Assembly (NCBI GenBank): GCA_029261135.1
Contig: JAJDBX010000037.1
Location: 1-47,072, forward strand
DNA: 47,072 nucleotides
Direction of reading: 5' to 3'
DNA from: Nitrospirota bacterium
Lineage (GTDB): Bacteria; Nitrospirota; Nitrospiria; SBBL01; JAADHI01
Shown: piece after piece, positions 8,562 through 47,072 of the stretch
Layout of the letters: the number at the start of each line of letters is the position of its first letter
How positions within the stretch are numbered: position 1 is the stretch's first letter
Made by a program: the position numbers and the translations under genes
The notes under the pieces: model-generated
Seen by the model: the letters and a program-made list of their open reading frames with translations, nothing else
The model's database searches: none
What the model was told of the DNA's origin: nothing

Positions 8562-8571
8562 AGTCTTGATC

Positions 8572-9832: not shown

Positions 9833-9849
9833 GATAAAGGCAATAAAGA

Positions 9850-11178: not shown

Positions 11179-13220
11179 TGACCAACATTGAGATAAATAA
11201 CGCAACCGGTATCTTTCGTGAGCCCTATCGGTATTGGTCTCCGGAGAAACTCTTGTCTTATTTCCAGAATCGAACCGGGATCCACTATTTTCCTGTCATC
11301 GACGAAACAGAAACGCGTCGAAAAAAGATAGAGAATATTCTCCTGAATCGTTTTGAATTTAATCATGAGTCATATTGTTTGTCAGAAGCTTTTGAGTGGA
11401 CTGATAATCCGAGTTCGGATATCGAGTGGTTGATACTGTTTCATAAGTTCTACTACTCAGTCGGATTAGGAATCGCCTTTCATGAAACGAAAGATCGACG
11501 GTATCTTCAAAAATGGATCGACCTGACTACTTCCTGGATCAACACAGTTTCTCCAGGGTTTCTATCAAGCGATGTGGCGGGAAGGCGTATCCAGAACTGG
11601 ATCTATGCACATTACTATTTCGTCACCCTTAATCCGACGGTACAACTTCCTTCAATATTTTATATCCAATTTTTGAAATCAATGAACGATCAAGTCATCC
11701 ATCTTGCAAATCACTTAACTCCGGCCCGTAACCATCGAACTTTGGAACTCTATTCAATTTTTTTAGCAGCCGTCGTTTTCCATGAGTTAAAGGGCTCTGA
11801 TATGTGGCTTGCATTTGCTAAAGAGGAGCTTCTGAAGAATATCCAGACAGACATTCTCGCAGACGGCGTCCATTGCGAGCTTTCTACAGATTACCACCAC
11901 ATTGTCCTTAAAAATTATCTCAATATTCGAAAACTGGCATCTCTTAATCACATTTCTATGCCTGAAGAGATGGATAAGCAGATCATGAAGGCACTCGAAT
12001 TTTCTATTTATGTTCATAAACCGGATGGTTTTATTCCTTCGCTCAGTGATGGCGATGTCGGAAGTTATTTAGATCTTTTAAGAGAAGGGCATCTGCTCTA
12101 TGGTTGCGAAAAAATGTTATATGCCGCTTCCAAAGGAAAATCGGGTCATCCTCCTTTGGAAAGGTCAAAAGGGTTTGTCGAAAGCGGATACTATATCCTC
12201 CGGAGCGGGTGGGGAAATAGCGCAAAAGCATATGAAGACGAGCGCTACCTTGTTTTTGATTGCGGCCCATTGGGGGCGGGAAACCATGGACATCTGGATT
12301 GTCTGAGTTTTGAAATGGCGGCCTACGGCCAGTCGTTAATCGTCGATCCGGGACGCTACACCTACGATGAATCTGGAGGCATCAATTGGCGTGTCCGATT
12401 CCGCGGAACGGCCTATCACAACACGGTACTCATCAATCAAAAGAATCAGACACGCTACGCCTTTCATAAAAAGAAATTTAAAATAAAAGGCCCGGAACCG
12501 GATCAGGAGATCAAAACCTTTATAAGTGAGCCAGGATTTGACTTTATCCACGGAGTGGCTCGTAGTCACGAGTACGAAGCTACACACGAGCGAAAAATCT
12601 TTTTTGCCTGTGCTGAATATTGGATTATATCAGATCTTTTACGGGCTGAATCATCACATGAATATGATCGGTTCTTTCATCTTTCTGATCAAGCCGATGG
12701 AAAGGTTTCAGTCATAGATGATCAGGATACTCTATTGGTGAATGCCCCTCATTTGATCATGGCGCAAGCCCATGATCCACAGGTGAACCTTTTTGTGGAG
12801 GAAGGCTACGTTTCTAAAACTTACGGAGTAAAATTGCGTGCGCCCGTTCTCCGTTACGCGAGCCATGCCGCTAATGCGATTTACCATACGATACTCTATC
12901 CGTATAAAAGGGAAAAACCCGAAATTTCTGTGGAAGTATTGCCTGTTTTATATAACGCCCAAGTTTGTGACAGTGCTCAAGCTTCGGCGCTATGTATCAC
13001 GATTTCTAAAAATGGACAAACGCATAAAGACTATTATTTCAGTAAAGACCCTGATTGCATTGAAACATGCACTTTCGGAGATTTTTCCTACAGTGGCACG
13101 CTCCTTTTTATTAGAAAAGATCCGAAGGGAAACATAACGGCTCTTCATAAAGATTCGGGAAAAATATTTAAAGAGGAGTCATCCTTCATATCACTAGGAC
13201 AGCGCTTCTTAACCAGGTGA
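11178..13220 (+). CDS. Heparinase II/III-like protein 1, no signal peptide
   Basis: A 680-residue protein with the family's two parts: an N-terminal alpha/alpha-toroid (about 1-330, containing RNHRTLELYSIFLAAVVF) and a C-terminal beta-sandwich with GAGNHGHLDCLSFEMAAYG (His370, His372), VDPGRYTY and AYHNTVLINQKNQ. The family cleaves uronic-acid polysaccharides by beta-elimination; relatives inside biosynthetic clusters may edit or epimerise glycans. No export signal is visible, so this one should act in the cytoplasm unless exported otherwise. The start at 11178 is supported by GAGGGA about 10 bases upstream and the TAATG overlap. A paralogue follows. Confidence 0.86.
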   Translation: MTNIEINNATGIFREPYRYWSPEKLLSYFQNRTGIHYFPVIDETETRRKKIENILLNRFEFNHESYCLSEAFEWTDNPSSDIEWLILFHKFYYSVGLGIAFHETKDRRYLQKWIDLTTSWINTVSPGFLSSDVAGRRIQNWIYAHYYFVTLNPTVQLPSIFYIQFLKSMNDQVIHLANHLTPARNHRTLELYSIFLAAVVFHELKGSDMWLAFAKEELLKNIQTDILADGVHCELSTDYHHIVLKNYLNIRKLASLNHISMPEEMDKQIMKALEFSIYVHKPDGFIPSLSDGDVGSYLDLLREGHLLYGCEKMLYAASKGKSGHPPLERSKGFVESGYYILRSGWGNSAKAYEDERYLVFDCGPLGAGNHGHLDCLSFEMAAYGQSLIVDPGRYTYDESGGINWRVRFRGTAYHNTVLINQKNQTRYAFHKKKFKIKGPEPDQEIKTFISEPGFDFIHGVARSHEYEATHERKIFFACAEYWIISDLLRAESSHEYDRFFHLSDQADGKVSVIDDQDTLLVNAPHLIMAQAHDPQVNLFVEEGYVSKTYGVKLRAPVLRYASHAANAIYHTILYPYKREKPEISVEVLPVLYNAQVCDSAQASALCITISKNGQTHKDYYFSKDPDCIETCTFGDFSYSGTLLFIRKDPKGNITALHKDSGKIFKEESSFISLGQRFLTR

Positions 13221-32752: not shown

Positions 32753-33952
32753 ATGAACCCAAAAGAACCATCACTACTCACCAGGAATTTTGCCCTTTTA
32801 TTTTTTGCCCACCTCTTTTTCGGCTTTGCCTTTTGGCCCTATGTACTGCTACCCGTCTTTCTTCAAGGTCTTGGAAGCAATCTCACCCAAGTCGGCATCA
32901 TTATGGGCCTTGCTTCGATCTCCGGGATGTTCATCCGGCCTTGGACAGGCAAGGCCCTCGACCAAATTGGCCGGAAAAAATGCCTTTTAACAGGGGGTAT
33001 CATTTTTCTCATCACCCACATGGTTTATCTCTCGATTGATGAAATTGGATGGATCCTTTATATCGTTCGCCTGCTTCACGGCCTCAGTATGGGCATTTTA
33101 TTTGCTACTTTTTTTACCTTCGCCGCAGACATGATCCCCGAATCGCGCCGCACGGAAGGGATCGCCCTTTTTGGGATTGGCGGACATTTATCAGGCGCCT
33201 TGGCTGTGCCACTGGGAGAATATATCATTCAGTTCGGCGGTTATTCCGACCTTTTTAAAGTGTGTGCAGGTTTTACGTTATTATCGACCGGACTCTGCTA
33301 TTTTTTAAAAGAACCCGAAAATAACCATGAAAAACCAGAGGTCAACCTAGGCCATTTTTTCAAAACAGCCTTTAAAACTCAAAATCGCGTTCCGCTCGCA
33401 GTGACCGCATGTTTTGCATTGGGACTCATCTCATACATGGTTTTTTTAAAACCTTATGCGCACTCCAAAGGCTTAATTGTCACCTCTTTTTTTCTCGCCT
33501 ATAGTTTAAGTGCTGTTTTTATTCGTCTCATTGGCAGGAAATGGCCAGATCAGTTCGGGCTCAAACAGGTGCTCTATCCTGCTCTATTTTCCCTTTCAAC
33601 CGGGATCACCTTGCTTGCCTTATGGCCCTCTCCAATAGGCTTACTTTTAAGCGGAATTCTCTGCGGAATCGGCCATGGCTTTATCTTTCCGATATTGTCC
33701 GTGCTGCTCATCAACCGTGCCCCAAGTAACGAGCGAGGTGGTCGAATGGCCTTATTTACCCTCTTCTTTGATGTGGGTATCTTTATCGGATCACCGCTCT
33801 GGGGCTTCATCGCCAATCATTATGGCTATCAATTGATGTTTCTTCTCTCCGCCGCAAGTGTTCTGACCAGTGTCGGTATTTTTGTTTTTTTGGATCAGCC
33901 CCATCACTCACTCCCCACCATGAAGGTCAGTCCAGAATACCGCTCAAGATAA
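32753..33952 (+). CDS. MFS transporter
   Basis: A 399-residue, 12-helix major facilitator protein. The loop 2-3 signature GMFIRPWTGKALDQIGRKKC is conserved, and the C-half has IRLIGRKWPDQFGLK at the equivalent place. There is a central loop with PENNHEKPE. Substrate unknown; the general look is that of sugar or drug efflux members (AraJ-like). It is divergent from bolA across 125 bases with weak RBS for the ATG at 32753. No link to the cobalamin genes downstream is evident other than position. Confidence 0.88.
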   Translation: MNPKEPSLLTRNFALLFFAHLFFGFAFWPYVLLPVFLQGLGSNLTQVGIIMGLASISGMFIRPWTGKALDQIGRKKCLLTGGIIFLITHMVYLSIDEIGWILYIVRLLHGLSMGILFATFFTFAADMIPESRRTEGIALFGIGGHLSGALAVPLGEYIIQFGGYSDLFKVCAGFTLLSTGLCYFLKEPENNHEKPEVNLGHFFKTAFKTQNRVPLAVTACFALGLISYMVFLKPYAHSKGLIVTSFFLAYSLSAVFIRLIGRKWPDQFGLKQVLYPALFSLSTGITLLALWPSPIGLLLSGILCGIGHGFIFPILSVLLINRAPSNERGGRMALFTLFFDVGIFIGSPLWGFIANHYGYQLMFLLSAASVLTSVGIFVFLDQPHHSLPTMKVSPEYRSR

Positions 33953-34048
33953 GCCAAGATCATCGGCTTCATATCCGAGATCGTGGACTTGAAGATAAGC
34001 ATTGCTTTTGTCCCATCCCCTTGCTATAACACTTTCGACATTACATAA

Positions 34049-34225
34049 CCTGATCAGGTGATCCCGGCCTCAAGCCGGGGTTGAAAAGGGAATCCCGTTA
34101 AAATCGGGAGCGGTCTCGCCGCTGTGTTGGGGGACGAAACCCACAAATGCCACTGTCGTGATGACGGGAAGGTGTGGGGAGTAGGACGAACCCAAAGCCA
34201 GAAGACCTGCCTGACTAGGAATCGC
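34049..34225 (+). ncRNA. Cobalamin riboswitch 1
   Basis: Aptamer landmarks are in order: CAGGTG, AAAAGGGAATCCCGTTAAAA, GCGGTCTCGCCGCTGT, GACGAAACCCACAAATGCCA, GGGAAGGTGTGGGGAGTAGG, then ACGAACCCAAAGCCAGAAGA and CCTGCCTG. These match the cobalamin riboswitch consensus, including the B12-box-like GCCAGAAGACCTGCC. Ends are approximate. An intrinsic terminator follows at 34268, so cobalamin should switch off the downstream receptor by termination. Confidence 0.93.
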
Positions 34226-34267
34226 GACCTGTCTTCGATGGACAAGACAACGGGATCACACGAGATA

Positions 34268-34304
34268 TCCCCAGTTTTTGACGATCAAAGCTGGGGATTT
34301 TTTT
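34268..34304 (+). terminator. Riboswitch expression-platform terminator
   Basis: TCCCCAG (34268-34274) pairs with CTGGGGA (34291-34297), followed by seven T's. It lies between the aptamer and the receptor gene. Confidence 0.85.
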
Positions 34305-34329
34305 GTTTTGAGACAGAGAATTTTAAACC

Positions 34330-36360
34330 ATGCTTCGCTTTTTCATTTTTTGGCTTATCATCATGAATCTGCTGACCTCACCCTCACTTGCAGCTGAATC
34401 GCAAGTACCCGATGACCCACCAGTTTTTTTGGAAGGCATTACCGTAGTCGCAGCCCCATACGATGAAGAAGACGATAACACGGAACCCTCACATAAAACC
34501 TTGATCATGGGAGAAACACTTCAGGAACGCTTTACTTCTATTCCTGAAATTCTCTCAGAAACCGTTGGCGTCAAGATCAATCGTTTTGGCGGACTCGGAG
34601 ATTTTAGCGCCATCTCCATTCGAGGTTCCTCTTCAAAACAAGTTTTGATCTATCTCGATGGGTTTTTACTCAACAATGCACAAGGTGGCGGGACGGATCT
34701 TGCACGCGTCCCACTCTCCCAAGTGAAGCGGATTGAAATTTACCGTGGCAGTGCGCCCATTCGATTCGGTCAAGTCGGCATCGGCGGGGTGATCAACATT
34801 GAAACGAAACAGGCCACGCACCAAACATCCGCCTCTGCTCAAATCCAGTATGGATCATTTAATACCTCTCGTTTCAATACAAGCCTTTCGAGCAAACCGG
34901 GAAAAAGTGACTTTTTTATCGGATTAAATCATGAAGAAAGCGACAACGATTTTATGTTCTTAAATGATAAGGGAACCCAATTTGATCTTGGTGATGACAC
35001 GATTGAAAAAAGAGAAAACAATCAGTTTGAATCGCTCAACCTGATTAGCAAAATAGGCTATGACCTCAGCACGAAAAACCGCCTCAATCTGTACCATAAT
35101 TTTCTAAAAACCGACAAAGGCCTGCCGGGCCTCAGCCGATTTCAATCGAAAACCGCAAACCTCAAAGCAGAAGAACATCGAAGCAGTCTCCGCATCGATG
35201 TAAACGATCTCTACGGCGCAACAACAAATTTAAAGTTAGGGCTACACTACGCGCGTAAAAAAGAACAATTTGAAGACCGAAATGGCGAAATCGGAATCAA
35301 CCGCCAAGATACCGATAACCTGACTGAACACTACGAAATCCGATTGAACTCAGAGGTCCTTCTCGGAGAAGCTCAAACCCTCAAAACACTACTGCAATAT
35401 AAAAAAGAACGCTTCCGACCTTTTGATAACCTCAGCACTGATGGTTTGAGCACAAGCCGTCGCGCAACCCTTACGATTGGCATGGAAGATCAGATCGCCT
35501 TCTTCCAAGACCGTCTTTTCCTCACACCCAGCATTCTCTATGACAAGGTCAAGAGCCGATTTAAGGGAGAAACTTTCAAAACCCGGATTGGAGGGCTTCT
35601 CCCCCCAACAAATGAAAAGGGGTTTTTAACACGGCAACTCGGCTTGTTTGCCCAGCTTACAAATACCCTGAGCCTACGCGCAAATATCGGACGTTATCTT
35701 CGACCCCCCAGTTTTTTTGAACTCTTTGGGGATCGAGGCGGTACCGTGAACAACCCTGATCTGCTCCCGGAAAAAGGCTTAAATCGGGATATCGGACTGA
35801 GGTACAGCAAAAGATTTCAAGGCTTCGTCAAAAAAGCCACAGTGCAAGCGGCCTACTTTAACAATGTTGCCGACAATCTCATTGTCTTTGTCCAAACCAG
35901 CCAATTTACAGCAAGACCAGAGAACATCGGAAAATCAAAAACCCAAGGACAAGAACTCTCCGGAAAACTGGAAATAGGAACATACCTTATGATCGAAAGT
36001 AATTACACCCATCAGCGGGCAATCAATCACTCTCCCAGAGAAAATGGGAAAATCCTTCCGGGCAGACCCATTCATGAGGTCTCAAGCAAAATGGAATGGG
36101 GTTCAGATCATTACGATTTTTTTTACACGCACGATTTTACCGATCAAAATTTTCTCGATGCACAAAATCAGAGAAATGCGACCTCACGCCATATCCACAA
36201 CCTTGGGGTCTCCATCAAATCACATCAAAACAACAGATCCAAAAAAAGTTGGTCGATCACACTCGAAGCAAAAAATATCACAGATAACACAATAGAGGAT
36301 GTCTTTGGTTTTCCATTGCCGGGACGATCCTACTTTATCACCCTTCAAGGCACAATTTAA
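34330..36360 (+). CDS. btuB: BtuB-like TonB-dependent cobalamin receptor
   Basis: A 676-residue outer-membrane receptor. The signal peptide is residues ~1-21 (cleavage near SLA-A). A TonB-box-like segment GITVVAAP follows. The plug domain contains ILSETVGVKINRFGGLGDFS, SIRGSSSKQVLIYLDGFLLN and KRIEIYRGSAPIRFG...GGVINIETK. The C-terminal barrel has FLRPPSFFELFGDRGG and ends in FPLPGRSYFITLQGTI. Position directly behind a cobalamin riboswitch and ahead of cbi genes supports cobalamin or cobinamide as ligand. A beta-propeller lipoprotein gene follows by 36 bases. Confidence 0.9.
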   Translation: MLRFFIFWLIIMNLLTSPSLAAESQVPDDPPVFLEGITVVAAPYDEEDDNTEPSHKTLIMGETLQERFTSIPEILSETVGVKINRFGGLGDFSAISIRGSSSKQVLIYLDGFLLNNAQGGGTDLARVPLSQVKRIEIYRGSAPIRFGQVGIGGVINIETKQATHQTSASAQIQYGSFNTSRFNTSLSSKPGKSDFFIGLNHEESDNDFMFLNDKGTQFDLGDDTIEKRENNQFESLNLISKIGYDLSTKNRLNLYHNFLKTDKGLPGLSRFQSKTANLKAEEHRSSLRIDVNDLYGATTNLKLGLHYARKKEQFEDRNGEIGINRQDTDNLTEHYEIRLNSEVLLGEAQTLKTLLQYKKERFRPFDNLSTDGLSTSRRATLTIGMEDQIAFFQDRLFLTPSILYDKVKSRFKGETFKTRIGGLLPPTNEKGFLTRQLGLFAQLTNTLSLRANIGRYLRPPSFFELFGDRGGTVNNPDLLPEKGLNRDIGLRYSKRFQGFVKKATVQAAYFNNVADNLIVFVQTSQFTARPENIGKSKTQGQELSGKLEIGTYLMIESNYTHQRAINHSPRENGKILPGRPIHEVSSKMEWGSDHYDFFYTHDFTDQNFLDAQNQRNATSRHIHNLGVSIKSHQNNRSKKSWSITLEAKNITDNTIEDVFGFPLPGRSYFITLQGTI

Positions 36361-36396
36361 TAAACACCAAAACAAAAGATGAGGAGAAAAGAAGAA

Positions 36397-37536
36397 ATGA
36401 ACCGAAAAACAACAAACATGATTATTGCCATTTTATTTTTTGTTACCATCAGTGGCTGTTCCGAAAACAAGACATCCGGGGGCGGCGCGAGCCCCTCATT
36501 TGGGTTTGTCATTACAAATGATTCCGGAGTGGGAAATCTCACGACAATCACCAGCACCACCCCTCGGAATACAGAAAAAGACATACTCGGCACCACAGTA
36601 CTTCACTCCGATTCGGTTATCCGATCTTTTGGCCGTTTTATTTATGTGATTCAACGGTTAGGGGCCAACTCTATTGTTGTCATTGATCCAAACAATCCAA
36701 ATACCCCAATTGCGAACTACACCACAAATGACACGGACAATCCCACGCAATCCAATCCGCACGATATGGATTTTGTCAGCAATTCAAAAGCCTACATTTC
36801 CCGCTATGGACTCAACACGATCTTGATTGTCAATCCCCTGAGTGGTGAGCAGCTCGGCACCATCGACCTGAGCCAATTTTCCGATAGCGATGGCATCGTC
36901 GAAATGGACCAAATGGTCATCATCGGTGATAAACTTTTTGTTTCCCTGCTTCGTTTGGATCGAGATACCTTCTTTGCTGCAACAAATGACAGTTATCTTG
37001 TCGTTATTGATACCAATACAGATCAATTGATAGAGGCCAGCCCCGGCGAAAATAAAGTTCTACTTGCAGGTCGAAACCCCTTCAGTGTGAACTACCTGGC
37101 CTCAACGGATCGGATTTATGTCTCAAATGTTGGGTTTTTCTCAACCACTGGTGATTTCGGCGGGATTGAATCCATCAACCCCAACAGTGGCTTAAGTGAA
37201 GGCATGCTCATCCATGATGACAATTTTAATGGCCCACTGGGAACCATTGCCATTCTATCTGAAACCATTGCCTATGTGACTGTTTTTGATGCCAATTTTA
37301 ATAATTTTGTGGTGCCTTTCAATTTGACAACAAGACAAATTGATCCCGCCTTAACCGGCATCGGCACAGGTTTTATTCCAAGTCTGGCTTTCGATAAATC
37401 CGGTTTTCTTTACGTGACAGATCGAGACCCGGCCAACCCGGGGCTTCAGGTTTTCAATACAACGACAAACCAAAAAGAAGAGGGGCCGATCGACACAGGA
37501 CTTTCCCCAAACGATGTGATCTTTATTAACCCTTAA
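36397..37536 (+). CDS. Beta-propeller lipoprotein, candidate BtuG-like cobalamin-binding partner
   Basis: A 379-residue lipoprotein. The signal peptide ends in the lipobox TISGC (Cys near 20), with a Gly/Ser tether. The body has seven or so repeats of the YVTN/YncE type (IYVIQRLGANSIVVIDPNNP, AYISRYGLNTILIVNPLSG, IYVSNVGFFS, LYVTDRDPANPGLQVFNTT). In Bacteroides, BtuG is a surface beta-propeller lipoprotein that captures B12 for BtuB. Here the gene sits right behind a btuB-like gene in a riboswitch-controlled unit, so an analogous role is inferred. The start at 36397 has AGGAG about 10 bases upstream; 36379 is an alternative start. Confidence 0.8.
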   Translation: MNRKTTNMIIAILFFVTISGCSENKTSGGGASPSFGFVITNDSGVGNLTTITSTTPRNTEKDILGTTVLHSDSVIRSFGRFIYVIQRLGANSIVVIDPNNPNTPIANYTTNDTDNPTQSNPHDMDFVSNSKAYISRYGLNTILIVNPLSGEQLGTIDLSQFSDSDGIVEMDQMVIIGDKLFVSLLRLDRDTFFAATNDSYLVVIDTNTDQLIEASPGENKVLLAGRNPFSVNYLASTDRIYVSNVGFFSTTGDFGGIESINPNSGLSEGMLIHDDNFNGPLGTIAILSETIAYVTVFDANFNNFVVPFNLTTRQIDPALTGIGTGFIPSLAFDKSGFLYVTDRDPANPGLQVFNTTTNQKEEGPIDTGLSPNDVIFINP

Positions 37537-37546
37537 CGCAAATCTA

Positions 37547-37580
37547 CCTCAATCCCCCTTTGACAAGGGGGGAGGTTTTT
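37547..37580 (+). terminator. Palindromic repeat acting as terminator
   Basis: CCTCAATCCCCCTT (37547-37560), TGAC, AAGGGGGGAGG, then TTTTT: a hairpin with U-run between the lipoprotein and cbiB. It is related to the longer repeat at 42943-42990. Confidence 0.7.
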
Positions 37581-37589
37581 GGAGTGAGT

Positions 37590-38549
37590 ATGCATCCAGT
37601 CTATTTGACAATGGCCTTTGGTCTTGACTTACTTTTGGGGGATCCCTTGTGGCTCCCCCATCCCGTACGGTGGATTGGCAAAGGGATTTCGACGTTTGAA
37701 AAAATACTTCGCCGCCGGGTCATGCCTCAGATCGGGGAAAAACTATCAGGAAGCGTGCTTACGGCAATGATCGTATCCGCCACCCTTGGACTTACCTGGT
37801 GCATCATGGCGTTTGGACAATTCATTCATCCCCGTTTTGAAGTGGTTTTGATGATCTATTTCTCTTACACCATTCTTGCCACCCGATCACTCGGCGATGC
37901 GGCGGCAGGGGTAAAAGAAGCCCTGCAAAACGCGGCACTTCCCCTGGCGCGAAAACGCTTGTCGCACATTGTCTCTCGGGACACTGAAAACCTTTCGGAA
38001 AAAGCCGTCATTCGTGCAACGATTGAAACGGTTGCCGAAAACACTTCGGATGGCATTGTTGCTCCGCTTTTTTATTTGTCGCTGGGTGGCCCGGCGCTCG
38101 CGATGGCTTATAAAGCCGTGAACACCTTGGACTCGATGGTGGGATATCGTACGCCACAATACCGTGACTTCGGGTGGGCTTCTGCAAAGTGTGACGATGG
38201 GGTCAACTATTTTCCCGCAAGAATCACAGGATTTTTAATGTGTCTTGCGGCCAGTATTCAATTTCGGCGGGGCAGACGATCTTTAAAGACCCTGTTGAGA
38301 GACGGGCACAAACACGACAGCCCCAACGCCGGCATTCCCGAAGCCGCAACTGCCGGGGTCCTGGGCATTCAGCTCGGCGGCCCCAGTGTTTACAAAGGGA
38401 TTGTAAAAGAAAAACCCTGGCTCGGCGATGGGGCAGAAAAACCGGAACCTCGACACATTCAAGACAGCATCCGCTTGATGCGCAGCACCGCAATCTTGAT
38501 GTGGCTCTTGTCGATACTAGGACTGAGTCTATCGCGAGGGGTTTTATGA
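37590..38549 (+). CDS. cbiB: Adenosylcobinamide-phosphate synthase CbiB (CobD)
   Basis: A 319-residue integral membrane protein that attaches (R)-1-amino-2-propanol phosphate (or the free aminoalcohol) to adenosylcobyric acid. Characteristic blocks are LLLGDPLWLPHPVRWIGKGI, ETVAENTSDGIVAPLFYLSL, NTLDSMVGYRTPQYRDFGWA, PARITGFLM and SPNAGIPEAATAGVLGIQLG. The ATG at 37590 has GGAG 5 bases upstream; GTG 37584 is less likely. Its stop overlaps the cbiA start by 4 bases. Confidence 0.95.
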   Translation: MHPVYLTMAFGLDLLLGDPLWLPHPVRWIGKGISTFEKILRRRVMPQIGEKLSGSVLTAMIVSATLGLTWCIMAFGQFIHPRFEVVLMIYFSYTILATRSLGDAAAGVKEALQNAALPLARKRLSHIVSRDTENLSEKAVIRATIETVAENTSDGIVAPLFYLSLGGPALAMAYKAVNTLDSMVGYRTPQYRDFGWASAKCDDGVNYFPARITGFLMCLAASIQFRRGRRSLKTLLRDGHKHDSPNAGIPEAATAGVLGIQLGGPSVYKGIVKEKPWLGDGAEKPEPRHIQDSIRLMRSTAILMWLLSILGLSLSRGVL

Positions 38550-39811
38550 AGGCCTTTGTCATCGCGGGCACGCACAGCGGCGTGGGCAAAACCACGGTCG
38601 CCATCGGACTCATGGCCGAATTCAAACGGCGCGGCCTGGCGGTGCAGGCCTTCAAAGTCGGGCCGGATTACATTGACCCTTCCTATCACCGCCTTGCCAC
38701 CGGCCGCCCTTCGCGTAACCTCGACACTTGGCTCTGCAGTAAAAAAACGGTGCGACAGAGTTTTGCGCGGGCAGCCCTGGATCTAAACGTCGTCGAAGGC
38801 GTCATGGGTTTGTTTGATGGCGCAAAAAATGGCAAAGGCAGCACAGCCGAAACCGCTGCCTTGCTTGAACTTCCGGTCCTGCTCATCGTCGATGCCAAAG
38901 GCATAGCGCAGTCTGTCGGTGCCCTAGTGCAGGGTTTTGCGCAATATCAGCCAACAACGCGCATTGCCGGTGTGATTTTTAACCGTGTGGCTTCCGAGGG
39001 CCATTATGTTTATCTCAAAAATGCCGCGAAAATTCCGAGCCTCGGCTGGATTGCAAAAAATCAAGACATCGTCCTGCCAGAGCGGCATCTCGGATTGGTG
39101 CCCGCATCAGAGCGTGTGCCGGACATCGAAAAAATCCGTGAAACCGTTGTCGCCCATCTGGATCTAGAGAAGCTCTTGCGGCTTTCAAAAATAAATGTGC
39201 CGCAGACACAGGCTTTACCAAAGCGAAAAACGCGGGCGCGCATCGCCTATGCCTTGGATGCCGCCTTTCACTTCTATTATGAGGATAATTTGGACTATCT
39301 GCGGGCGGCAGGCGCGGAACTTATCCCTTTCAGTCCACTCAAAGATACGCGCCTGCCAGATGCCGACCTGCTCTATTTTGGCGGAGGTTTCCCAGAACTA
39401 TTTGAAAAAATATTGCGCAAAAACAAAGACTTTTGTGAGGCGATGCAGTCCTGGAAAAAACCGATTTATGCAGAATGCGGGGGGCTTTATTACCTCAGTC
39501 TCATCCACAAAATCCCCGGAAAAATGGAAATGCGGGATCGTCTTCAGCACTTTGGTTACGCCAAAGCCACGGCCCAGGCCGATACCTGTCTTCTCCGCGC
39601 GGGAGAAAGCGTGAAAGGCCACATGTTTCATTATTCACACTGGGACGGACCGGCGAATCTCTACCGCTTTGAAAAACGGGGTGCGCGCTTGAGTGAAGGT
39701 TATGCCGCCGGAAGGATTCACGCCTCGTACTTGCACGTGCATTTTGCTTCGAATCCTAAACTTGCGCGGCATTTGGTCGCGGCCGCATCGCAGGCGCAAA
39801 AGGAGGTCTGA
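38546..39811 (+). CDS. cbiA: Cobyrinate a,c-diamide synthase CbiA
   Basis: A 421-residue amidotransferase, slightly shorter than usual. The N-terminal P-loop synthetase domain has IAGTHSGVGKTTVAIGLMAE, KVGPDYIDPSYHR and GLFDGAK. The C-terminal class I glutaminase has the nucleophile Cys in YAECGGLYYL, and GHMFHYSHWD and RIHASYLHVHF near the end. It amidates side chains a and c of cobyrinate using glutamine and ATP. The ATG at 38546 overlaps the cbiB stop; the longer in-frame extension upstream runs inside cbiB and is rejected. Its stop overlaps cbiX (TGATG). Confidence 0.95.
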   Translation: MKAFVIAGTHSGVGKTTVAIGLMAEFKRRGLAVQAFKVGPDYIDPSYHRLATGRPSRNLDTWLCSKKTVRQSFARAALDLNVVEGVMGLFDGAKNGKGSTAETAALLELPVLLIVDAKGIAQSVGALVQGFAQYQPTTRIAGVIFNRVASEGHYVYLKNAAKIPSLGWIAKNQDIVLPERHLGLVPASERVPDIEKIRETVVAHLDLEKLLRLSKINVPQTQALPKRKTRARIAYALDAAFHFYYEDNLDYLRAAGAELIPFSPLKDTRLPDADLLYFGGGFPELFEKILRKNKDFCEAMQSWKKPIYAECGGLYYLSLIHKIPGKMEMRDRLQHFGYAKATAQADTCLLRAGESVKGHMFHYSHWDGPANLYRFEKRGARLSEGYAAGRIHASYLHVHFASNPKLARHLVAAASQAQKEV

Positions 39812-40518
39812 TGAAACAAGCCGTACTTCTGGTCGGACATGGCAGCAAAGATCCCGAAGGCAACAAGGAATTTGAGACCTTCGCGGCGCGTGCGGGTATG
39901 CGCCATTGTATGCTTGATTATATCGAGCCTTCATTGCCCACTGCGCTTTCACTGCTTGCGGCAGAGGGCGTGCGCGATTTAGCCGTCATCCCCTATTTTC
40001 TCTTTGCTGGGGGGCATGTAAAACAAGATATTCCGGGCCACATTCAAGCCGCAGCGGCGAAATATCCAAAAATGAACATTCGGCTGGGGCGGCATCTGGG
40101 CTTGGAGCCAGCCCTGTTTCAAGCCAGCGCCGCGCGATTGGGGTCCATCGAAAACCGAAAGGTGCTCTTGGTGGGACGCGGCAGTTTGCACCCCGATCCC
40201 ATTCGTGACATGGCCGCGCTCACACAGGCGCTTCAAACCCGTATCGGCCACGCGGAGATCGACCACTGTTTCATTGCCTTGGCGCCGCCATATCTACCGA
40301 CAGGCATCGCGCGAATGCGCGAGGCTTCGGGTGATGTACCGATTGTCTTGCCCTATTTTTTATTCACCGGGGTCTTGGTAAAACGTATCATCCAAATCAG
40401 TGAAGCACAGGGCTGTGAGGTCCGGCCGCACTTGGGGGCGCACGAGGCCTTGCTACACTTGCTTCATCAACGGAAGACTGAAATTTGGGAGGGAAATGAC
40501 CATGCAAACCATTGTTGA
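39811..40518 (+). CDS. cbiX: Sirohydrochlorin cobaltochelatase CbiX (long form)
   Basis: A 235-residue double-domain CbiX. The first half has both metal-binding His (VLLVGHGSKDPEGNKEF, YFLFAGGHVKQDIP). In the second half they are lost (LLVGRGSLHPD, YFLFTGVLVKRI), so there is one active site per chain. It inserts Co(II) into sirohydrochlorin at the start of the anaerobic branch. The C-terminal tail is short and not His-rich. Start overlaps the cbiA stop by one base; its 3' end overlaps cbiC by 17 bases. Confidence 0.92.
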   Translation: MKQAVLLVGHGSKDPEGNKEFETFAARAGMRHCMLDYIEPSLPTALSLLAAEGVRDLAVIPYFLFAGGHVKQDIPGHIQAAAAKYPKMNIRLGRHLGLEPALFQASAARLGSIENRKVLLVGRGSLHPDPIRDMAALTQALQTRIGHAEIDHCFIALAPPYLPTGIARMREASGDVPIVLPYFLFTGVLVKRIIQISEAQGCEVRPHLGAHEALLHLLHQRKTEIWEGNDHANHC

Positions 40519-41125
40519 TCCGCAAGCCATTGAAGACGAATCGTTCCGAATTATCGAAGCAGAATTTGGCCCCCACGCCTTTTCACCAGAGGCCTTTTCC
40601 ATCGTGCGTCGCGCGGTACACGCGACGGCGGATTTTGATTTTTCAAAAACCATCCATATTTTTCCGGGGGCCATTCGAGCGGGCATTGCCGCCATTCGCG
40701 CCGGTGCGCCCGTCATTGCTGATGTGCAGATGATTCAAGCGGGCATCAATAAAAAAGGGCTCGCGGCTTTTGGTTCAGAGGTTTTGTGTTACATCGGTGA
40801 CGAAGACGTCGCGAAAAAAGCGAAAGCGGTAGGCGTCACCCGGGCGATGATTTCCATGCGAAAAGCAGCCTCGTATTTTCCGGGGGCAATTTATGCGATC
40901 GGAAACGCGCCGACCGCGCTTCTGGAATTGATTCGCCTTGCGGAAACCGCCAAACCTGCGCTGGTCATTGGTGTCCCTGTGGGCTTTGTTTCCGCCGTGG
41001 AGTCCAAAGAACAATTGGCGAAAACAGATCTGCCCTACATCACCGCCCTGGGACGCAAAGGCGGCACCCCGGTGGCGGTGTCCATCATGAACGCACTCAT
41101 TAAACTCGCAGGAGAAAAAATATGA
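40502..41125 (+). CDS. cbiC: Cobalt-precorrin-8 methylmutase CbiC
   Basis: A 207-residue enzyme moving the C-11 methyl to C-12 in precorrin-8. The catalytic His region RRAVHATADFDF, FPGAIRAGIAAIRAGAPVIADVQMIQAGI and the glycine-rich IYAIGNAPTALLELIRL and GVPVGFVSAVESKE are all present. The start at 40502 is set by GGAGGG 8 bases upstream, inside the end of cbiX; ATG 40496 is too close to that RBS. Stop overlaps the next ATG by 4 bases. Confidence 0.94.
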   Translation: MQTIVDPQAIEDESFRIIEAEFGPHAFSPEAFSIVRRAVHATADFDFSKTIHIFPGAIRAGIAAIRAGAPVIADVQMIQAGINKKGLAAFGSEVLCYIGDEDVAKKAKAVGVTRAMISMRKAASYFPGAIYAIGNAPTALLELIRLAETAKPALVIGVPVGFVSAVESKEQLAKTDLPYITALGRKGGTPVAVSIMNALIKLAGEKI

Positions 41126-41448
41126 AACCGTATCGGTGGCATTTGTTGGTGTGCACTGGCTCTCGCTGCACCGAAAACGGGGAAGCCGAAGCCCTCTTTG
41201 CCCAACTCGGCGAAAAACTGAAACAGCACGGGCTCGATGATGGCGAGCTACGTGTGAAACGCACACGTTGTAGCTGTTTTGCAATCTGCAAAGAAGGCCC
41301 GATCGTCACCCTTCATCCCGACGGGACCTGGTACAAGCGCGTCACGCCGGAGGTTTTGGACGACATTCTGGAAAAACATCTCAAGGGTGGTGAAGTCGTG
41401 GAAGCCCATGTCTATCATCAGGCGGAAGTGCTCCCCGTTTTAAAATAG
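41122..41448 (+). CDS. Thioredoxin-like [2Fe-2S] ferredoxin
   Basis: A 108-residue protein with LLVCTGSRCTENGEAEAL and later RTRCSCFAICKEGPIVTLHPDGTWY: Cys residues spaced as in the thioredoxin-like (Shethna/NuoE-type) ferredoxins. Such genes are recurrent companions of CbiX/CbiC in anaerobic cobalamin operons and may supply electrons for cobalt reduction or ring chemistry (inference). AGGAG precedes the ATG, which overlaps the cbiC stop by 4 bases. A cobalamin riboswitch follows. Confidence 0.85.
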   Translation: MKPYRWHLLVCTGSRCTENGEAEALFAQLGEKLKQHGLDDGELRVKRTRCSCFAICKEGPIVTLHPDGTWYKRVTPEVLDDILEKHLKGGEVVEAHVYHQAEVLPVLK

Positions 41449-41463: not shown

Positions 41464-41660
41464 AAGGAGGTGCGTCAAAAGAAAACACAATCAGCCTTTA
41501 AAACAGTCGTCAAAGCGCGATGTATTTAGGGAAGGCGGTGAAAGTCCGCCACTGCCCCGCAACTGTAATGGGAGACGAAGACTGCCTCATGCCACTGTTC
41601 TTTAAAGAATGGGAAGGCGCAGCCAGTAGGATGAACCCAAAGTCAGGAGACCGATGAATC
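41464..41660 (+). ncRNA. Cobalamin riboswitch 2
   Basis: GGTGCG (41469 on), AGGGAAGGCGGTGAAAGTCC, CCACTGCCCCGCAACTGTAA, then ATGCCACTGTT, GGGAAGGCGCAGCCAGTAGG, ATGAACCCAAAGTCAGGAGA follow the cobalamin riboswitch consensus closely. Ends are approximate. Unlike the first copy it is not followed by a U-tract terminator but by a hairpin at 41669-41699. Confidence 0.95.
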
Positions 41661-41668
41661 GCACACAC

Positions 41669-41699
41669 AGGGAAGCTCAGACTTAATCAGAGCTTCCCT
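41669..41699 (+). repeat. Hairpin derived from the MITE-like repeat family
   Basis: AGGGAAGCTC (41669-41678), an 11-nt loop AGACTTAATCA and GAGCTTCCCT (41690-41699). The segment GACTTAATCAGAGCTTCC matches the ends of the 160-bp element at 31779-31938. It sits right after the aptamer and 38 bases before the ATG, where an expression platform is expected. Confidence 0.75.
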
Positions 41700-41737
41700 A
41701 AAATCGCTTTAATTTTCGAGGGAAAAGGAGGAAGCAC

Positions 41738-42940
41738 ATGAACACCACCATTCAAAGTATCGTCTTTTCAGCACTTTTATTGAACAGTTCTTTGTCGGTC
41801 GCCTGGGCGAGTGGAACAGAAAAAGGACTCAGCGGCTACGACCCCAAAACACTGGCTTTTGTCACCAATCGGGATTCAAATGACATTGCCGTCATCGATA
41901 CCGAAGCCGATCGTGTCATTGCCCGAATCCCCTTGGGTGCAATGAGCAATGCCCACATGGCTCAGCCGACACATGATGGCAAAAAACTCCTGGTTTCCGC
42001 CACGGGACGCAATCAGTTTTTAGTCGTCGATCTCGCCACGCTTCAAATAGAGCATAACATCCAAACCGGCGCGGCCCCCGAACATTTTGGCCTCACGCCA
42101 GACAACAAATATGCCACCGTAGGCAACATGGGCGATTCCAGTGTCTCCCTCGTTGATTTGAATGCAGGAAAAGAGCTGCAACGTTTTGCCGGATTTCCTG
42201 AACCGCATGGTTTTAGTTTTTCCCCTCAAAATAAGAAGATTTACGTTTCCAGTTTTGGTGCACACGAAGTGCGCAGTTTTAATCTTCCGGCCCAAAAATG
42301 GGCTGTGCGGCATCCGATTGGCACAATCTATCGAGCGGCGATTCAAAAACCGAAACCGTATCAAAGTGTCTTAAAAGGCGTGGCGCACCCGACGCTTTCG
42401 ATGAATGGAAAATACATCTACGCCGCAGATGGTGATTCCGGGCAAGTGGGCATTATCGACACAAAAAATGACCGGCTGATCTCAACGATTAAAGTCGGGA
42501 AAGCCCCCTGGCGGGCTTATGCCTCTCCCGATGGACTTTGGATGCTGGTTTTAAATAACGGCGATCACAGTATTTCCGTCATCAGCACCGCAACACAAGA
42601 AGTCGTTGCGACCCTGAAAGGCGGCGCGGACATGAGCGGCGTGAACTTTGTTCAGGGCGGCAAAAAGGCTTATGTGGTGAGTCAGTCCGAGGGCGCAGTG
42701 TATGCCTTTGATTTGCGGACGTTCAAAAAAATCAATCGCCTGAAACTGGGTGAAAATCTGATTTTGGAAACCGCTGCCACCAGCGCGGACGGCAAAAAAG
42801 TCTATGTCGCCTCTTCAAGCGACGGCGCGGTCTACGTGATCAATGCGGCAAGCGATGGCGTGAAACGCATTGCCGACGTGGGGCGGTTTCCCTGGGGAAT
42901 TAGCATCCTCGGCGCGGCGAGCGCGAATTATTGTCACTGA
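41738..42940 (+). CDS. Exported YVTN-type beta-propeller protein under B12 riboswitch
   Basis: A 400-residue protein with a signal peptide (about 1-25, cleavage near AWA-S) and no lipobox. It has seven-fold YVTN/YncE-like repeats: LAFVTNRDSNDIAVIDTEAD, KLLVSATGRNQFLVVDLATL, YATVGNMGDSSVSLVDLNAG, IYVSSFGAHEVRSFNLPA, YIYAADGDSGQVGIIDTKND and more. It lacks the c-type heme motif of cytochrome cd1 relatives. Its own cobalamin riboswitch and neighbours point to periplasmic cobalamin or corrinoid binding, like the propeller lipoprotein at 36397 (inference). GGAGG precedes the ATG at 41738. Confidence 0.82.
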   Translation: MNTTIQSIVFSALLLNSSLSVAWASGTEKGLSGYDPKTLAFVTNRDSNDIAVIDTEADRVIARIPLGAMSNAHMAQPTHDGKKLLVSATGRNQFLVVDLATLQIEHNIQTGAAPEHFGLTPDNKYATVGNMGDSSVSLVDLNAGKELQRFAGFPEPHGFSFSPQNKKIYVSSFGAHEVRSFNLPAQKWAVRHPIGTIYRAAIQKPKPYQSVLKGVAHPTLSMNGKYIYAADGDSGQVGIIDTKNDRLISTIKVGKAPWRAYASPDGLWMLVLNNGDHSISVISTATQEVVATLKGGADMSGVNFVQGGKKAYVVSQSEGAVYAFDLRTFKKINRLKLGENLILETAATSADGKKVYVASSSDGAVYVINAASDGVKRIADVGRFPWGISILGAASANYCH

Positions 42941-42942: not shown

Positions 42943-42990
42943 GAGGCAAATCCCCCCTTACCCCACTTTGGCAAAGGGGGGATTTGCCTC
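42943..42990. repeat. Intergenic palindromic repeat, 15-bp arms
   Basis: GAGGCAAATCCCCCC (42943-42957) and its exact complement (42976-42990) with an 18-base loop. It shares the AATCCCCC...TTTGNCAA...GGGGG plan with 37547-37575, suggesting a genome-wide repeat. Confidence 0.8.
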
Positions 42991-43001
42991 CAAGGCATGC
43001 G

Positions 43002-44111
43002 GTGCAGGCAAAAAATTTCGATAAAAAGAACCTGCACAATGGTTGGACGACCGGCATCTGTGCGGCGGCTGCGGCAAAAGCAGCGGTAATTGCCTTGCGG
43101 ACACAGCAGAAACAAGACTCCGTTGAGGTCATGCTCCCGATGGGGAAAACGCAGGTTTTTGTGGTCGCGCAGTGTGAATTTTGCGACGTTTCCGCGACCT
43201 GCGTTGTGATTAAAGATGCAGGGGATGACCCGGATTGCACAGATGGTGCGCACTTAACCGCCACGGTTTCCTGGAATGATGAAGTCGGACAAATTGAATT
43301 GAAAGGCGGCGCAGGCGTGGCAACGGTCACTAAAATGGGTTTGGGATTGCAGGTCGGTCAATCTGCCATCAATCCCGTCCCCTTCAAAAACATCACAGAG
43401 ATGGTTCGGGAAGGGGCGGTTGATGGACTTGAAAACAGGGGGCTTCGGGTTGTGATCTCCGTTCCGGGTGGAGGAATCATGTCGGAACTGACCCAGAATG
43501 CCCGGCTCGGCCTCATGGGCGGTATTTCGATTTTGGGTACGAGCGGTATTGTCCGGCCCTATTCTTCTGCCGCCTTTAAGGTATCCATCGCACAAGGCAT
43601 GGATGTCGCGGTGGGCGAGGGGCTTTCAACCGTCGTGCTCACCACGGGCGGAAAGAGTGAAGATTATCTCATGAGACTGACGGGTCTTCCGCAATCGGCC
43701 TATGTGCAAATGGGCGATTTTGCGGGTTTTTCCCTTAAACGCGCCGCAAAAAGTGGGATTAAAAAGGTCATCATCGGCGGCATGCCCGGCAAGCTGAGTA
43801 AAATCGCGATGGGCAAAATGCAGACCCACGCCGCCGGCGGACAGGTGGATCTTGGGTTTTTGGCTGAAATCGGACGGGAAGCGGGCGCCTCCGCCGAAAT
43901 CATTCAAAGGATTGCTGAAGCCAATACCGCACGGCATGTGCAGGAAATTGTGGAACAACATCAGGTACAGGGTTTTTGGGACATCGTTGCCTTCAAGGTT
44001 TGCGAGGTCTCGCGAAGGCATGTGGGTGGGGCGATGACCTTGGCCTGTATGCTCGTTGATTTTGGAGGCGCGATCATTGGGCAAGCGGAAATCGGAGAGG
44101 AGCAGGATTGA
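43002..44111 (+). CDS. cbiD: Cobalt-precorrin-5B C1-methyltransferase CbiD
   Basis: About 369 residues. The family N-terminus NGWTTGICAAAAAKAAVIAL is present, then KDAGDDPDCTDGAHL, VPGGGIMSELTQNARLGLMG and GISILGTSGIVRPYSSAAFK, and GMPGKLSKIAMGKMQTHA. CbiD methylates C-1 during anaerobic ring contraction. GTG 43002 is chosen, with AAGG five bases upstream; TTG 42984 would start inside the intergenic repeat. Stop overlaps the cbiET start. Confidence 0.93.
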   Translation: MQAKNFDKKNLHNGWTTGICAAAAAKAAVIALRTQQKQDSVEVMLPMGKTQVFVVAQCEFCDVSATCVVIKDAGDDPDCTDGAHLTATVSWNDEVGQIELKGGAGVATVTKMGLGLQVGQSAINPVPFKNITEMVREGAVDGLENRGLRVVISVPGGGIMSELTQNARLGLMGGISILGTSGIVRPYSSAAFKVSIAQGMDVAVGEGLSTVVLTTGGKSEDYLMRLTGLPQSAYVQMGDFAGFSLKRAAKSGIKKVIIGGMPGKLSKIAMGKMQTHAAGGQVDLGFLAEIGREAGASAEIIQRIAEANTARHVQEIVEQHQVQGFWDIVAFKVCEVSRRHVGGAMTLACMLVDFGGAIIGQAEIGEEQD

Positions 44112-45331
44112 ATCAATTCGTTTACATCATCGGTATCGGCGACAAGGGCGCGGAGAGTTTAGGGCGCGAGGCGCTTCAAATCATCACGGCAGCGGAAGTC
44201 CTGCTCGGCGGGGAGCGCCATTTGGCCTGTTTTCCAGACCTGTCTTCAGAGAAATTCCCCATTCAAAACAACCTTAAAGCCATCACCGAAAAAATCGCGT
44301 CGGAGACGCGCCGTGTCGTGGTTCTGGCCTCGGGCGACCCCCTGTTTTATGGCATTGCAGGCTATCTTTTGAATAAAATCGGCGCAGAGCGCTTGAAGGT
44401 CATTCCCAGTACATCCTCCATGCAGCTCGCTTTTGCGCACGTGCTGACCTCTTGGCACGATGCACTTTTAGTGAGTTGTCATGCCAAGCCGCTTGCACCC
44501 GCCATTGAATCCATCCGCGAGGCCAAAAAGGTCGGGATTTTCACGGATCAAAACAACACGCCCGCGTTTATCGCAACACAGCTCGTCAAAGCGGGGATCT
44601 CTGATTTCAGGGCCTTTGTCTGCGAAAACCTGGGCGGAAAAGAAGAGCAAGTTATTGAAGCCGATCTGATTGATCTTCAAGACCGCAGCTTTGCGCCCTT
44701 AAATGTGCTCATTCTCATTAAACAAGTTCGGCCCGTCGCCCTGCCTGTACGTGAGTGGTCTTTTGGTATCCCGGATGATGCCTTCCATCAGCGTCAGCCG
44801 CTCAAAGGGCTCATCACCAAAAATGAAGTGCGGGTTATCAGTCTCAGTAAAATGCAGATTCATCCAGGCGATATCGTTTGGGACATCGGCGCGGGTTCAG
44901 GCTCCGTGTCAATTGAAGCGGCTCTGCTCGGTGCGAAGGTCTGGGCGATTGAAAAAAACCAGGGCGATTGCGACATCATTCGCAAAAACATCGTGCAATT
45001 TGGCATTCTCGAAAAAAAAGGGAAGATACAAGTCATCCACGGCAGGGCGCCGGAAGCCTTGGCCGACTTGCCCGCGCCCGATGCTGTTTTTATCGGCGGT
45101 TCCGGTGGAGAGATTTCAGAAATCGTGCAACTTTGCCAAACCCACCTTAAAAAAGGCGGGCGCTTGGTGATCAATCTCGCAACACTTGAAAACGTTGCGG
45201 CCCTGCAAAATATTCTGGGGCAAAGCAGCGCAGTCACGCTCGTACAGATTAACCGCAGCCGCCCGATTTTAAACCTCACCCGTTTTGAAGCACTCAACCC
45301 GGTATTCGTCATTTCATGGGAGAAAATATGA
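44108..45331 (+). CDS. cbiET: Fused CbiE-CbiT precorrin-6B/7 methyltransferase
   Basis: A 407-residue fusion. Residues 1-~200 are the CbiE tetrapyrrole methyltransferase (YIIGIGDKGAESLGREAL, ASGDPLFYGIAGYLL) for C-5; residues ~210-407 are CbiT (IHPGDIVWDIGAGSGSVSIE, VWAIEKN) for C-15 methylation and decarboxylation. Start is TTG 44108 with GGAGAGGAG upstream, overlapping cbiD by 4 bases. The fused form corresponds to CobL of the aerobic pathway but lies among anaerobic cbi genes. Confidence 0.94.
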   Translation: MNQFVYIIGIGDKGAESLGREALQIITAAEVLLGGERHLACFPDLSSEKFPIQNNLKAITEKIASETRRVVVLASGDPLFYGIAGYLLNKIGAERLKVIPSTSSMQLAFAHVLTSWHDALLVSCHAKPLAPAIESIREAKKVGIFTDQNNTPAFIATQLVKAGISDFRAFVCENLGGKEEQVIEADLIDLQDRSFAPLNVLILIKQVRPVALPVREWSFGIPDDAFHQRQPLKGLITKNEVRVISLSKMQIHPGDIVWDIGAGSGSVSIEAALLGAKVWAIEKNQGDCDIIRKNIVQFGILEKKGKIQVIHGRAPEALADLPAPDAVFIGGSGGEISEIVQLCQTHLKKGGRLVINLATLENVAALQNILGQSSAVTLVQINRSRPILNLTRFEALNPVFVISWEKI

Positions 45332-46401
45332 AAACAGCCACTATCGCCATCACCAAACACGGTGCAGCCATCGCTCGAAAACTGGGTGGAGACCGTTTCA
45401 TTAAAAACAAGTTCAGGCCCGAGGGCGAAGCCGATCAACAAGACCTCATCTATTTTGACGCCCCGATTAAAAGTCTCACGGCAGAGATTTGGCCGCGATA
45501 CAAGGCCCTGGTGTATGTCGTCTCGCTCGGGGCCGTGGTGCGTACAATCGCCCCGTTTTTAAAAGATAAACACGAAGACCCGGCGATTATTGTTGTGGAC
45601 GATAAAGCACAGTTTGTCATCAGCGTGCTTTCAGGGCATGTCGGCGGGGCGAATCAACTCACGCAAGAAATCTCAGATAGACTCTCCGCCACTGCGATTA
45701 TTACCACGGCGAGTGATGTGGGCCAAACCATCTCCGTGGATATTTTGGGGCGCGAGCTGGGTTGGACGACGGAAGGCGAGGCCTTCATCACAGCCGTGAG
45801 TGCCGCCGTTGTCAACGAAGAAGCGGTCGCCTTTGTGCAGGAAACGGGTGAACTTCAGTGGTGGAACAGGCAAAGCCCTCTGCCCAAAAATATCGTTGTT
45901 ACGACATTGGATGCACTCGAAAAAGACGCGGGTCATTTTTCAGCGCTGCTCTTTGTTACGGATCGCGTCATTGATATGACGCCGATTGAAAAAAGTGTTT
46001 TGTATCGACCCAAAAGCTTGGTTCTGGGCATCGGTTCCGACCGCGGGACTTCCCTTGAGCAGATCGAAAGTTTTGTGTTTTCCCAACTTACAGTGGCCCA
46101 CCTGTCTTTTAAAAGTGTGCGCAATGTCGCCACGGCCGAAGCCAAACGGGACGAACCCGGTCTGAATGCCTTTTGCGAAAAACATGGGCTCGCGCTTGTC
46201 TGTTATGCCAGCGAGACACTCAAAACCGTTCAGGCTCCCAATCCCTCGGCGATGGTGCTCAAACACCTTGGCACACCGGGTGTCTCGGAGCCTGCGGCCA
46301 TGTTGTCATCGGAAGGTACCTTAATCGTCCCCAAACAAAAAACGCAGGGTGTGACGCTCGCGGTCGCCCGAATTGATTTTGAACAAGGAGATGCGTCATG
46401 A
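45328..46401 (+). CDS. cbiG: Cobalt-precorrin-5A hydrolase CbiG
   Basis: A 357-residue enzyme opening the delta-lactone of cobalt-precorrin-5A. It has IAITKHGAAIARKL at the N-terminus, GAVVRTIAPFLKDKHEDPAI, LSGHVGGANQLTQEI and the C-terminal LVLGIGSDRGTSLEQIE with VGTPSV-like end KTQGVTLAVARI. CbiG marks the oxygen-independent route. ATG 45328 has GGGAG six bases before and overlaps the cbiET stop (ATGA). Confidence 0.94.
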   Translation: MKTATIAITKHGAAIARKLGGDRFIKNKFRPEGEADQQDLIYFDAPIKSLTAEIWPRYKALVYVVSLGAVVRTIAPFLKDKHEDPAIIVVDDKAQFVISVLSGHVGGANQLTQEISDRLSATAIITTASDVGQTISVDILGRELGWTTEGEAFITAVSAAVVNEEAVAFVQETGELQWWNRQSPLPKNIVVTTLDALEKDAGHFSALLFVTDRVIDMTPIEKSVLYRPKSLVLGIGSDRGTSLEQIESFVFSQLTVAHLSFKSVRNVATAEAKRDEPGLNAFCEKHGLALVCYASETLKTVQAPNPSAMVLKHLGTPGVSEPAAMLSSEGTLIVPKQKTQGVTLAVARIDFEQGDAS

Positions 46402-47072
46402 AAAAAGGAAAACTCTTTTTGGTCGGTTTTGGTCCCGGGAGCCAAGATCATCTGACGAAGCGGGCAAAAGAAGCCATTGCCGAAGCGGAAACAATTATCG
46501 GCTACACCACCTATATTCGACTCGTCAAACCGCTTTGCGAAGGGAAAGAAGTGATTTACACCGGCATGACCGAAGAGCTTGCCCGCGCTCGAAAAGCGGT
46601 GGACATGGCCTATGCCGGAAAAAAAGTCGCCCTGGTTTCTTCCGGGGATGTCGGGATTTACGGCATGGCAGGCCCTGCTTTTGAGTGTCTCAAAGAAAAG
46701 GGATGGAAGCGCGGTGGCGAGATTGACGTGGAAGTCGTGCCGGGGGTGACGGCAGGCAGTGCTTGCGCGAGCATCATGGGTGCTCCTCTGGGTCACGATT
46801 TTTGTAACATCAGTTTGTCTGACTTGCTCACCGATTGGAATGTCATCAAGCTCCGCTTAGAAGCTGCAGCCAAAGCCGATTTTGTGACCGTGCTGTACAA
46901 CCCTAAAAGTGGCCGACGAACCAAACAAATCATCGAAGCGCAGAAGATTTTTTTGCAATATCGAAAAAGTTCAACCCCGGTGGCCCTTGTGAAATCGGCC
47001 TATCGGGATTTAGAGCAAATCGTTCTAACGGATTTGGAGGACATGCTGGAGCACGAAATCGGCATGCTCACC
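46398..47072 (+). CDS. cbiH: Cobalt-factor III (precorrin-3B) C17-methyltransferase CbiH, clipped by window end
   Basis: The frame starting at ATG 46398 is open to the last base: 225 residues of a normally ~240-residue enzyme. LFLVGFGPGSQDHLTKRA, IIGYTTYIRLVKPL, VSSGDVGIYGMAGPAFE, VVPGVTAGSACASIMGAPLG and FVTVLYNPKSGRRTKQI are the SAM-binding and substrate blocks of CbiH/CobJ. It methylates C-17 and contracts the ring. The start overlaps the cbiG stop by 4 bases. Remaining steps (cbiL, cbiF, cbiJ) are not in the window and may follow. Confidence 0.95.
   Translation, partial: MKKGKLFLVGFGPGSQDHLTKRAKEAIAEAETIIGYTTYIRLVKPLCEGKEVIYTGMTEELARARKAVDMAYAGKKVALVSSGDVGIYGMAGPAFECLKEKGWKRGGEIDVEVVPGVTAGSACASIMGAPLGHDFCNISLSDLLTDWNVIKLRLEAAAKADFVTVLYNPKSGRRTKQIIEAQKIFLQYRKSSTPVALVKSAYRDLEQIVLTDLEDMLEHEIGMLT

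Follow-up and report, generated by a model that had tools for sequence, protein, structure and literature searches.

A secreted β-propeller behind a cobalamin riboswitch in a Nitrospirota cbi operon as a candidate periplasmic cobalt-binding protein

Why would a soluble, secreted β-propeller be placed behind a cobalamin riboswitch within an operon for B12 synthesis? The window analyzed here, a 47,072-nucleotide stretch of DNA from a Nitrospirota bacterium related to Candidatus Manganitrophus, contains two riboswitch-propeller pairs within 8 kb, both of which proved real (34039-37536 and 41529-42940). A first-pass annotation had taken the two pairs as a sign of one corrinoid-related function for this fold, with the second propeller perhaps acting as a periplasmic carrier. 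We propose instead, on the basis of sequence and context, that the second propeller may be a periplasmic cobalt-binding and delivery protein for anaerobic B12 synthesis, a reading to which we give about an even chance and which we favor over a corrinoid carrier. The features on which the analysis is based are the following, all on the forward strand.

34039-37536, forward strand: first pair, comprising a cobalamin riboswitch (34039-34228), a BtuB-type TonB receptor (34330-36360) and a BtuG-like lipoprotein propeller (36379-37536), from RF00174, Pfam, NCBIfam and a PDB match.
37560-41125, forward strand: cbiB, cbiA, cbiX and cbiC, the upstream part of the cbi operon (cbiB, cbiX and cbiC from Pfam/NCBIfam, cbiA by sequence and synteny).
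41122-41448, forward strand: thioredoxin-like 2Fe-2S ferredoxin, CbiW-like by position (PF01257 and the neighborhood table).
41517-41662, forward strand: cobalamin riboswitch aptamer, P2-less and with a short P1 (RF00174; P1 pairing in the predicted fold).
41669-41698, forward strand: putative regulatory hairpin P13 of 10 bp (sequence and fold).
41726-41737, forward strand: likely ribosome-binding site, AGGAGG plus spacer (sequence).
41738-42940, forward strand: secreted YVTN propeller of 400 residues with about eight blades by repeat count (open reading frame, models and repeat register).
42984-47072, forward strand: cbiD, cbiET, cbiG and cbiH, the downstream part of the cbi operon, with cbiH truncated by the contig end (Pfam/NCBIfam; cbiH by sequence and a 100% match in genome G003).

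The reading frame of the second propeller runs from the ATG at 41738 to a stop codon ending at 42940. Its product starts with a signal peptide (MNTTIQSIVFSALLLNSSLSVAWAS), lacks both a lipobox and a CxxCH motif, and matches the YVTN repeat model TIGR02276 with 154.6 bits; seven full repeats and one split repeat predict about eight blades. The gene is flanked by cbiC and the ferredoxin gene upstream and by cbiD, cbiET, cbiG and cbiH downstream. The earlier description of a secreted YVTN protein with neither lipobox nor heme motif, located inside the cbi operon directly behind its own B12 riboswitch, was thus borne out. Between genes near the propeller, inverted repeats of the form AAATCCCCCCTT...AAGGGGGGATTT occur in two species (window 42947-42989 and about 2130-2260 of locus L037), and look like a dispersed repeat of the window's genus.

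The riboswitch was matched by RF00174 at 41529-41652 with 94.0 bits (gathering score 31.5, E 3.1e-22, model positions 46-168), ending 85 bases before the propeller ATG on the same strand. It is one of two RF00174 matches in the whole window genome, both within the window. P1 is formed by GCGAT (41517-41521) and ATCGC (41658-41662), and P2 is absent. The loop of P13, GACTT (41680-41684), could base-pair with L5, AAGTC (41542-41546), in a kissing loop suggested by their complementarity, which is also kept in G003. A search for an intrinsic terminator downstream of this riboswitch found none, and folding of the leader revealed no clear ribosome-binding-site switch. Repression of the propeller gene by cobalamin is therefore an assumption, with the sign of regulation taken over from known riboswitches.

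The propeller belongs to a family of 34 orthologues from three phyla, found in Nitrospirota, Brocadiales and one myxobacterial-type genome, with most carriers being MAGs. Among 98 relatives, seven other genomes encode an orthologue at 63-93% identity; the remaining propellers listed in them reach about 40% identity or below, over partial stretches only. In a profile scan of genome contigs, 15 relatives at close or moderate distance came up, among them Brocadiales and one 'Deltaproteobacteria' genome, labeled Myxococcota by the tree tool. The family was present in 24 of the 62 genomes of the order to which one Brocadiales genome belongs, and in the third phylum only the Myxococcota-labeled carrier and one distant cousin were found among 395 genomes. 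The Nitrospirota orthologues form one clade.

The comparative search for riboswitch-YVTN pairs that the first-pass annotation had called for gave a clear result. Two of the 34 loci are cut upstream, leaving 32 readable ones, and RF00174 was present upstream on the same strand in 30 of these (riboswitch counts made by hand from neighborhood tables), so the pairing is not a matter of chance. Half of the readable loci (16/32) have two tandem cobalamin riboswitches (L038, L046, L048, L049, L051-L053, L055, L088, L090, L093, L095, L097-L099 and L102); in L102, a gene without assignment separates them from the module. RF00174 is absent upstream of the propeller in the readable loci L039 and L041, and in L047 and L050 the riboswitch heads a longer run of genes before the propeller. 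The L050 run is extensive: from 206 to 12791, and in one direction, it comprises the riboswitch, a TonB receptor, an ExbB-like protein, DUF2149, a large exported-looking CobN-type chelatase, TonB, a porin, the propeller, a cupredoxin-like protein and an S41 protease.

In the commonest layout, the riboswitch is followed by an OprB-like porin and then by the propeller. The porin has a coiled-coil-like start and a C-x2-G ... C motif, to which most Planctomycetota add a third cysteine, giving a conserved two-to-three-Cys knuckle. In Planctomycetota loci, the propeller precedes either a cupredoxin-like protein (a label resting on a GCDIHxEM motif spotted by eye) and an S41 protease, or a NosL-S41 fusion. 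In Nitrospirota, the module lies among cbi, cobO and bluB genes together with a ferredoxin, and the 2Fe-2S ferredoxin is the upstream neighbor of the propeller or porin in all loci but one, which is on a 5.7-kb contig. A cbi-cluster location was seen in all Nitrospirota loci on long enough contigs and in L047.

We then compared the two propellers of the window with respect to B12 synthesis and salvage. CbiD was found in seven of the eight Nitrospirota carriers of the second propeller as opposed to 13 of 90 non-carriers (p 4e-5 over the 98 relatives, a statistic that ignores kinship); in the eighth carrier, the contig ends inside a cbi cluster. CbiD is also present in 8 of 10 other carriers, and the family tracks de novo B12 synthesis. 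The first propeller, on the other hand, yielded PDB matches of the BtuG type only (E 0.004 to 0.1), namely 8OKV, 8P97 and 8P98, which are BtuG3 or BtuB3G3 (PMC10404256). Its orthologues are found in G001, G003, G034 and G038, and in G001 and G034, both of which lack CbiD, they follow a TonB receptor. This persistence, together with the BtuG-type matches, fits a role in corrinoid salvage, and for the same reasons the two pairs probably differ in function. Since the two propellers are also barely related (BLASTP 23.9 bits; profile comparison 43.6% probability), the step from two pairs to one corrinoid-related fold does not hold. BtuG has been described as exclusive to Bacteroidetes (PMC6143338), and the BtuG-like propeller at 36379-37536 lies in a Nitrospirota window. 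Just upstream of the first riboswitch, an MFS transporter is encoded at 32753-33952, which is also found in G003.

The residues conserved in the second propeller resemble those of a metal site. His116 and His176 are invariant in all 34 orthologues, as are His73 and His157 in the 33 whose sequence spans these positions. All 34 end exactly in Tyr398-Cys399-His400, Cys399 being the sole cysteine of the window protein and adjoining the C-terminal histidine. His79, His106, His192, His217 and His277 vary among orthologues, and non-orthologous YVTN propellers from the same class lack the His/YCH set. According to the repeat register, His73, His116 and His157, spaced by 43 and 41 residues, occupy positions on three blades in a row that are equivalent to within one residue, at the strand-A start or D-A loop, and His176 is in the B-C loop of the last one, which bears His157. 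This invariant set suggests a metal cargo rather than a corrinoid. The link to the B12 pathway and the idea of a periplasmic carrier gained strong support, while a corrinoid cargo appears less likely.

The arrangement resembles that of AztD, an 8-bladed zinc chaperone in which zinc is bound in the pore by His124, His167 and His218, with the C-terminal His408 being part of a second site (PMC6689063). Both are secreted propellers of eight blades (by repeat count in the window protein) with a C-terminal histidine, three histidines of the window protein may correspond to those that successive blades of AztD contribute to the pore, and both are encoded beside metal-dependent uptake or synthesis genes. 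The histidine spacing is 43 and 51 residues in AztD as against 43 and 41 here, where blade placement comes from the repeat register. In contrast to AztD, the window protein has a C-terminal Cys-His, cobalamin riboswitch control and, in its relatives, a porin partner, and with Cys399 only it lacks the disulfide pair of the P. denitrificans protein (Cys214/Cys231). It scores 24 bits against the AztD model NF038015 (cutoff 400), which has no members among 148 Nitrospirota genomes, and no linked AztABC-type transporter was seen. We therefore treat the resemblance as a working analogy, not as membership; as such, the predicted blade placement of His73, His116 and His157 lends support to the cobalt-binding reading.

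None of the curated models claims the family, with YncE, AztD, L-NosZ and hydrazine synthase beta all far below cutoff. The YncE equivalog NF052280 gave 50.7 bits (cutoff 400); proteins of the YncE, PF21783 and TIGR02276 types share the repeat type and general fold, but not the family-specific residues. L-NosZ, the clade III N2O reductase (NF052460), gave 73.4 bits (cutoff 700). The CuZ site of a full NosZ-type enzyme requires seven histidines; an N2O reductase of this type was ruled out both by the score and by the number of invariant histidines, which is four.

The strongest competitor of the cobalt reading is the periplasmic corrinoid carrier proposed earlier, which would bind cobalamin or cobinamide like the surface protein BtuG and hand it over to an inner-membrane importer; we consider it unlikely. 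BtuG propellers do bind corrinoids (PMC10404256; PMC6143338), share the propeller fold and a linkage to B12 functions and cobalamin riboswitches with the window protein, and are among the weak hits (about 30 bits) obtained from the PDB with the family profile. NirF-type propellers likewise bind tetrapyrroles via histidine ligands, and the L050 operon opens with a TonB receptor. However, BtuG is a 7-bladed surface lipoprotein of Bacteroides encoded next to btuB, whereas the second propeller is soluble, would have about eight blades, lacks a lipobox, carries the invariant His/Cys set reminiscent of a metal site, and adjoins a ferredoxin and cbiD or, in relatives, a porin as its usual partner in place of BtuB. 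To our knowledge, typical porins do not pass corrinoids. Furthermore, it is the synthesis gene CbiD that the family follows, while the BtuG-like protein and its TonB receptor persist without it.

Less probable still is that the cargo would be another metal, most likely copper, or that the protein is a general periplasmic metal buffer, with B12 control reflecting an indirect need. The NosL-like and cupredoxin-like partners in Planctomycetota are in line with copper, as are weak matches to profiles of L-NosZ and NosZ. The distant cousin in L108 (546-2429) keeps the NYCH end, lacks the pore histidines and is followed by SCO1/SenC, which hints at a wider metal-handling superfamily. Against copper stand the location in cbi clusters, the riboswitch control in three phyla and the four invariant histidines where a CuZ site would need seven; nor is it evident why copper handling should be repressed by cobalamin.

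A periplasmic tetrapyrrole-modifying enzyme that acts on a corrinoid intermediate in the manner of NirF appears very unlikely. NirF has essential Arg and Lys residues. It is an 8-bladed tetrapyrrole-binding enzyme of heme d1 synthesis (PMC13168839), and the blade count of the window protein would agree with it. PF02239 (cytochrome d1) matches the propeller with 51.3 bits (gathering score 25.5) over partial stretches and alongside several other propeller models, and the 8-bladed NirF and cytochrome cd1 d1 domains have histidines aligned at the H157 and H176 positions, at about 44 bits only, which is a counterpoint to the cobalt reading. Their context is heme d1, whereas that of the window protein is cobalamin, and the constant porin pairing and chaperone-like domains point to uptake. 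The anaerobic cobalamin pathway is, as far as we know, cytoplasmic and requires no periplasmic modifying step. Finally, the propeller might be a generic YVTN protein, with the riboswitch there only to drive the cbi genes downstream, as suggested by cbiD starting only 43 bp behind the propeller in the window; the comparative data largely refute this, as Planctomycetota keep riboswitch, porin and propeller together with no cbi gene downstream and the family alignment has a mean column identity of 62% (18 sequences, three phyla).

Periplasmic cobalt handling, the favored explanation, draws on the cobalamin control, the cbi context, the porin, the metal-type partner domains and the invariant His/Cys set, and it is from regulation and context that we infer cobalt as the metal. 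It is further supported by the co-occurrence with CbiD, by cbiM with its own riboswitch near L052 and L099, and by the window genome, in which neither CbiM nor NicO was found. When cobalamin is scarce, the riboswitch would permit expression of the propeller, together with the outer-membrane porin in most relatives. Co(II) in the periplasm would then be held at the top face of the propeller by His73, His116 and His157, one from each of three blades in a row and with His176 in the vicinity, as well as by the flexible C-terminal Cys399-His400, before being passed to an inner-membrane importer and on to CbiX, in an overall mode of action like that of AztD. We know of no periplasmic cobalt chaperone described before. 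Known cobalt importers were largely discovered through riboswitch or cbi-type context (PMC7689651), which CbiMNQO, NiCoT and the predicted TonB cobalt receptors have in common with the window propeller; these are membrane importers, while the propeller is predicted to be periplasmic and has a porin in most relatives. As counterpoints, the NosL-like and cupredoxin-like neighbors and the SCO1 beside L108 would also fit copper, and the porin is absent from the window's genus: a search of the window genome for its orthologue found none, the best match being a distant OprB-like protein.

More tentatively, a porin admitting Co(II) and a propeller with a histidine site and Cys-His might together constitute a dedicated route across the outer membrane and periplasm, controlled by cobalamin riboswitches that are often in tandem. 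This touches on the passage of cobalt through the outer membrane and on how it is kept apart from other metals before it reaches the B12 pathway. As of 2021, there was no confirmed outer-membrane receptor specific for cobalt (review, PMC7689651), and neither a porin nor a propeller is mentioned in a 2009 survey of nickel, cobalt and B12 utilization. Fold and riboswitch are already known, as is the idea of a propeller acting as a metallochaperone. The literature searched, which covered few subscription papers and contained no paper combining YVTN and cobalamin riboswitch, appears to offer no description of the family, of its residue signature or of the riboswitch-porin-propeller module. As a soluble protein of 400 residues with a single cysteine, the propeller should be easily expressed and tested with buffered metals. 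With porin and propeller, there is a concrete pair of candidate genes that is spread over three phyla, with anammox bacteria and Manganitrophus-type Nitrospirota among the carriers. In three Manganitrophus loci (L033, L034 and L035), the cbi cluster with the propeller module sits on plasmid-labeled records.
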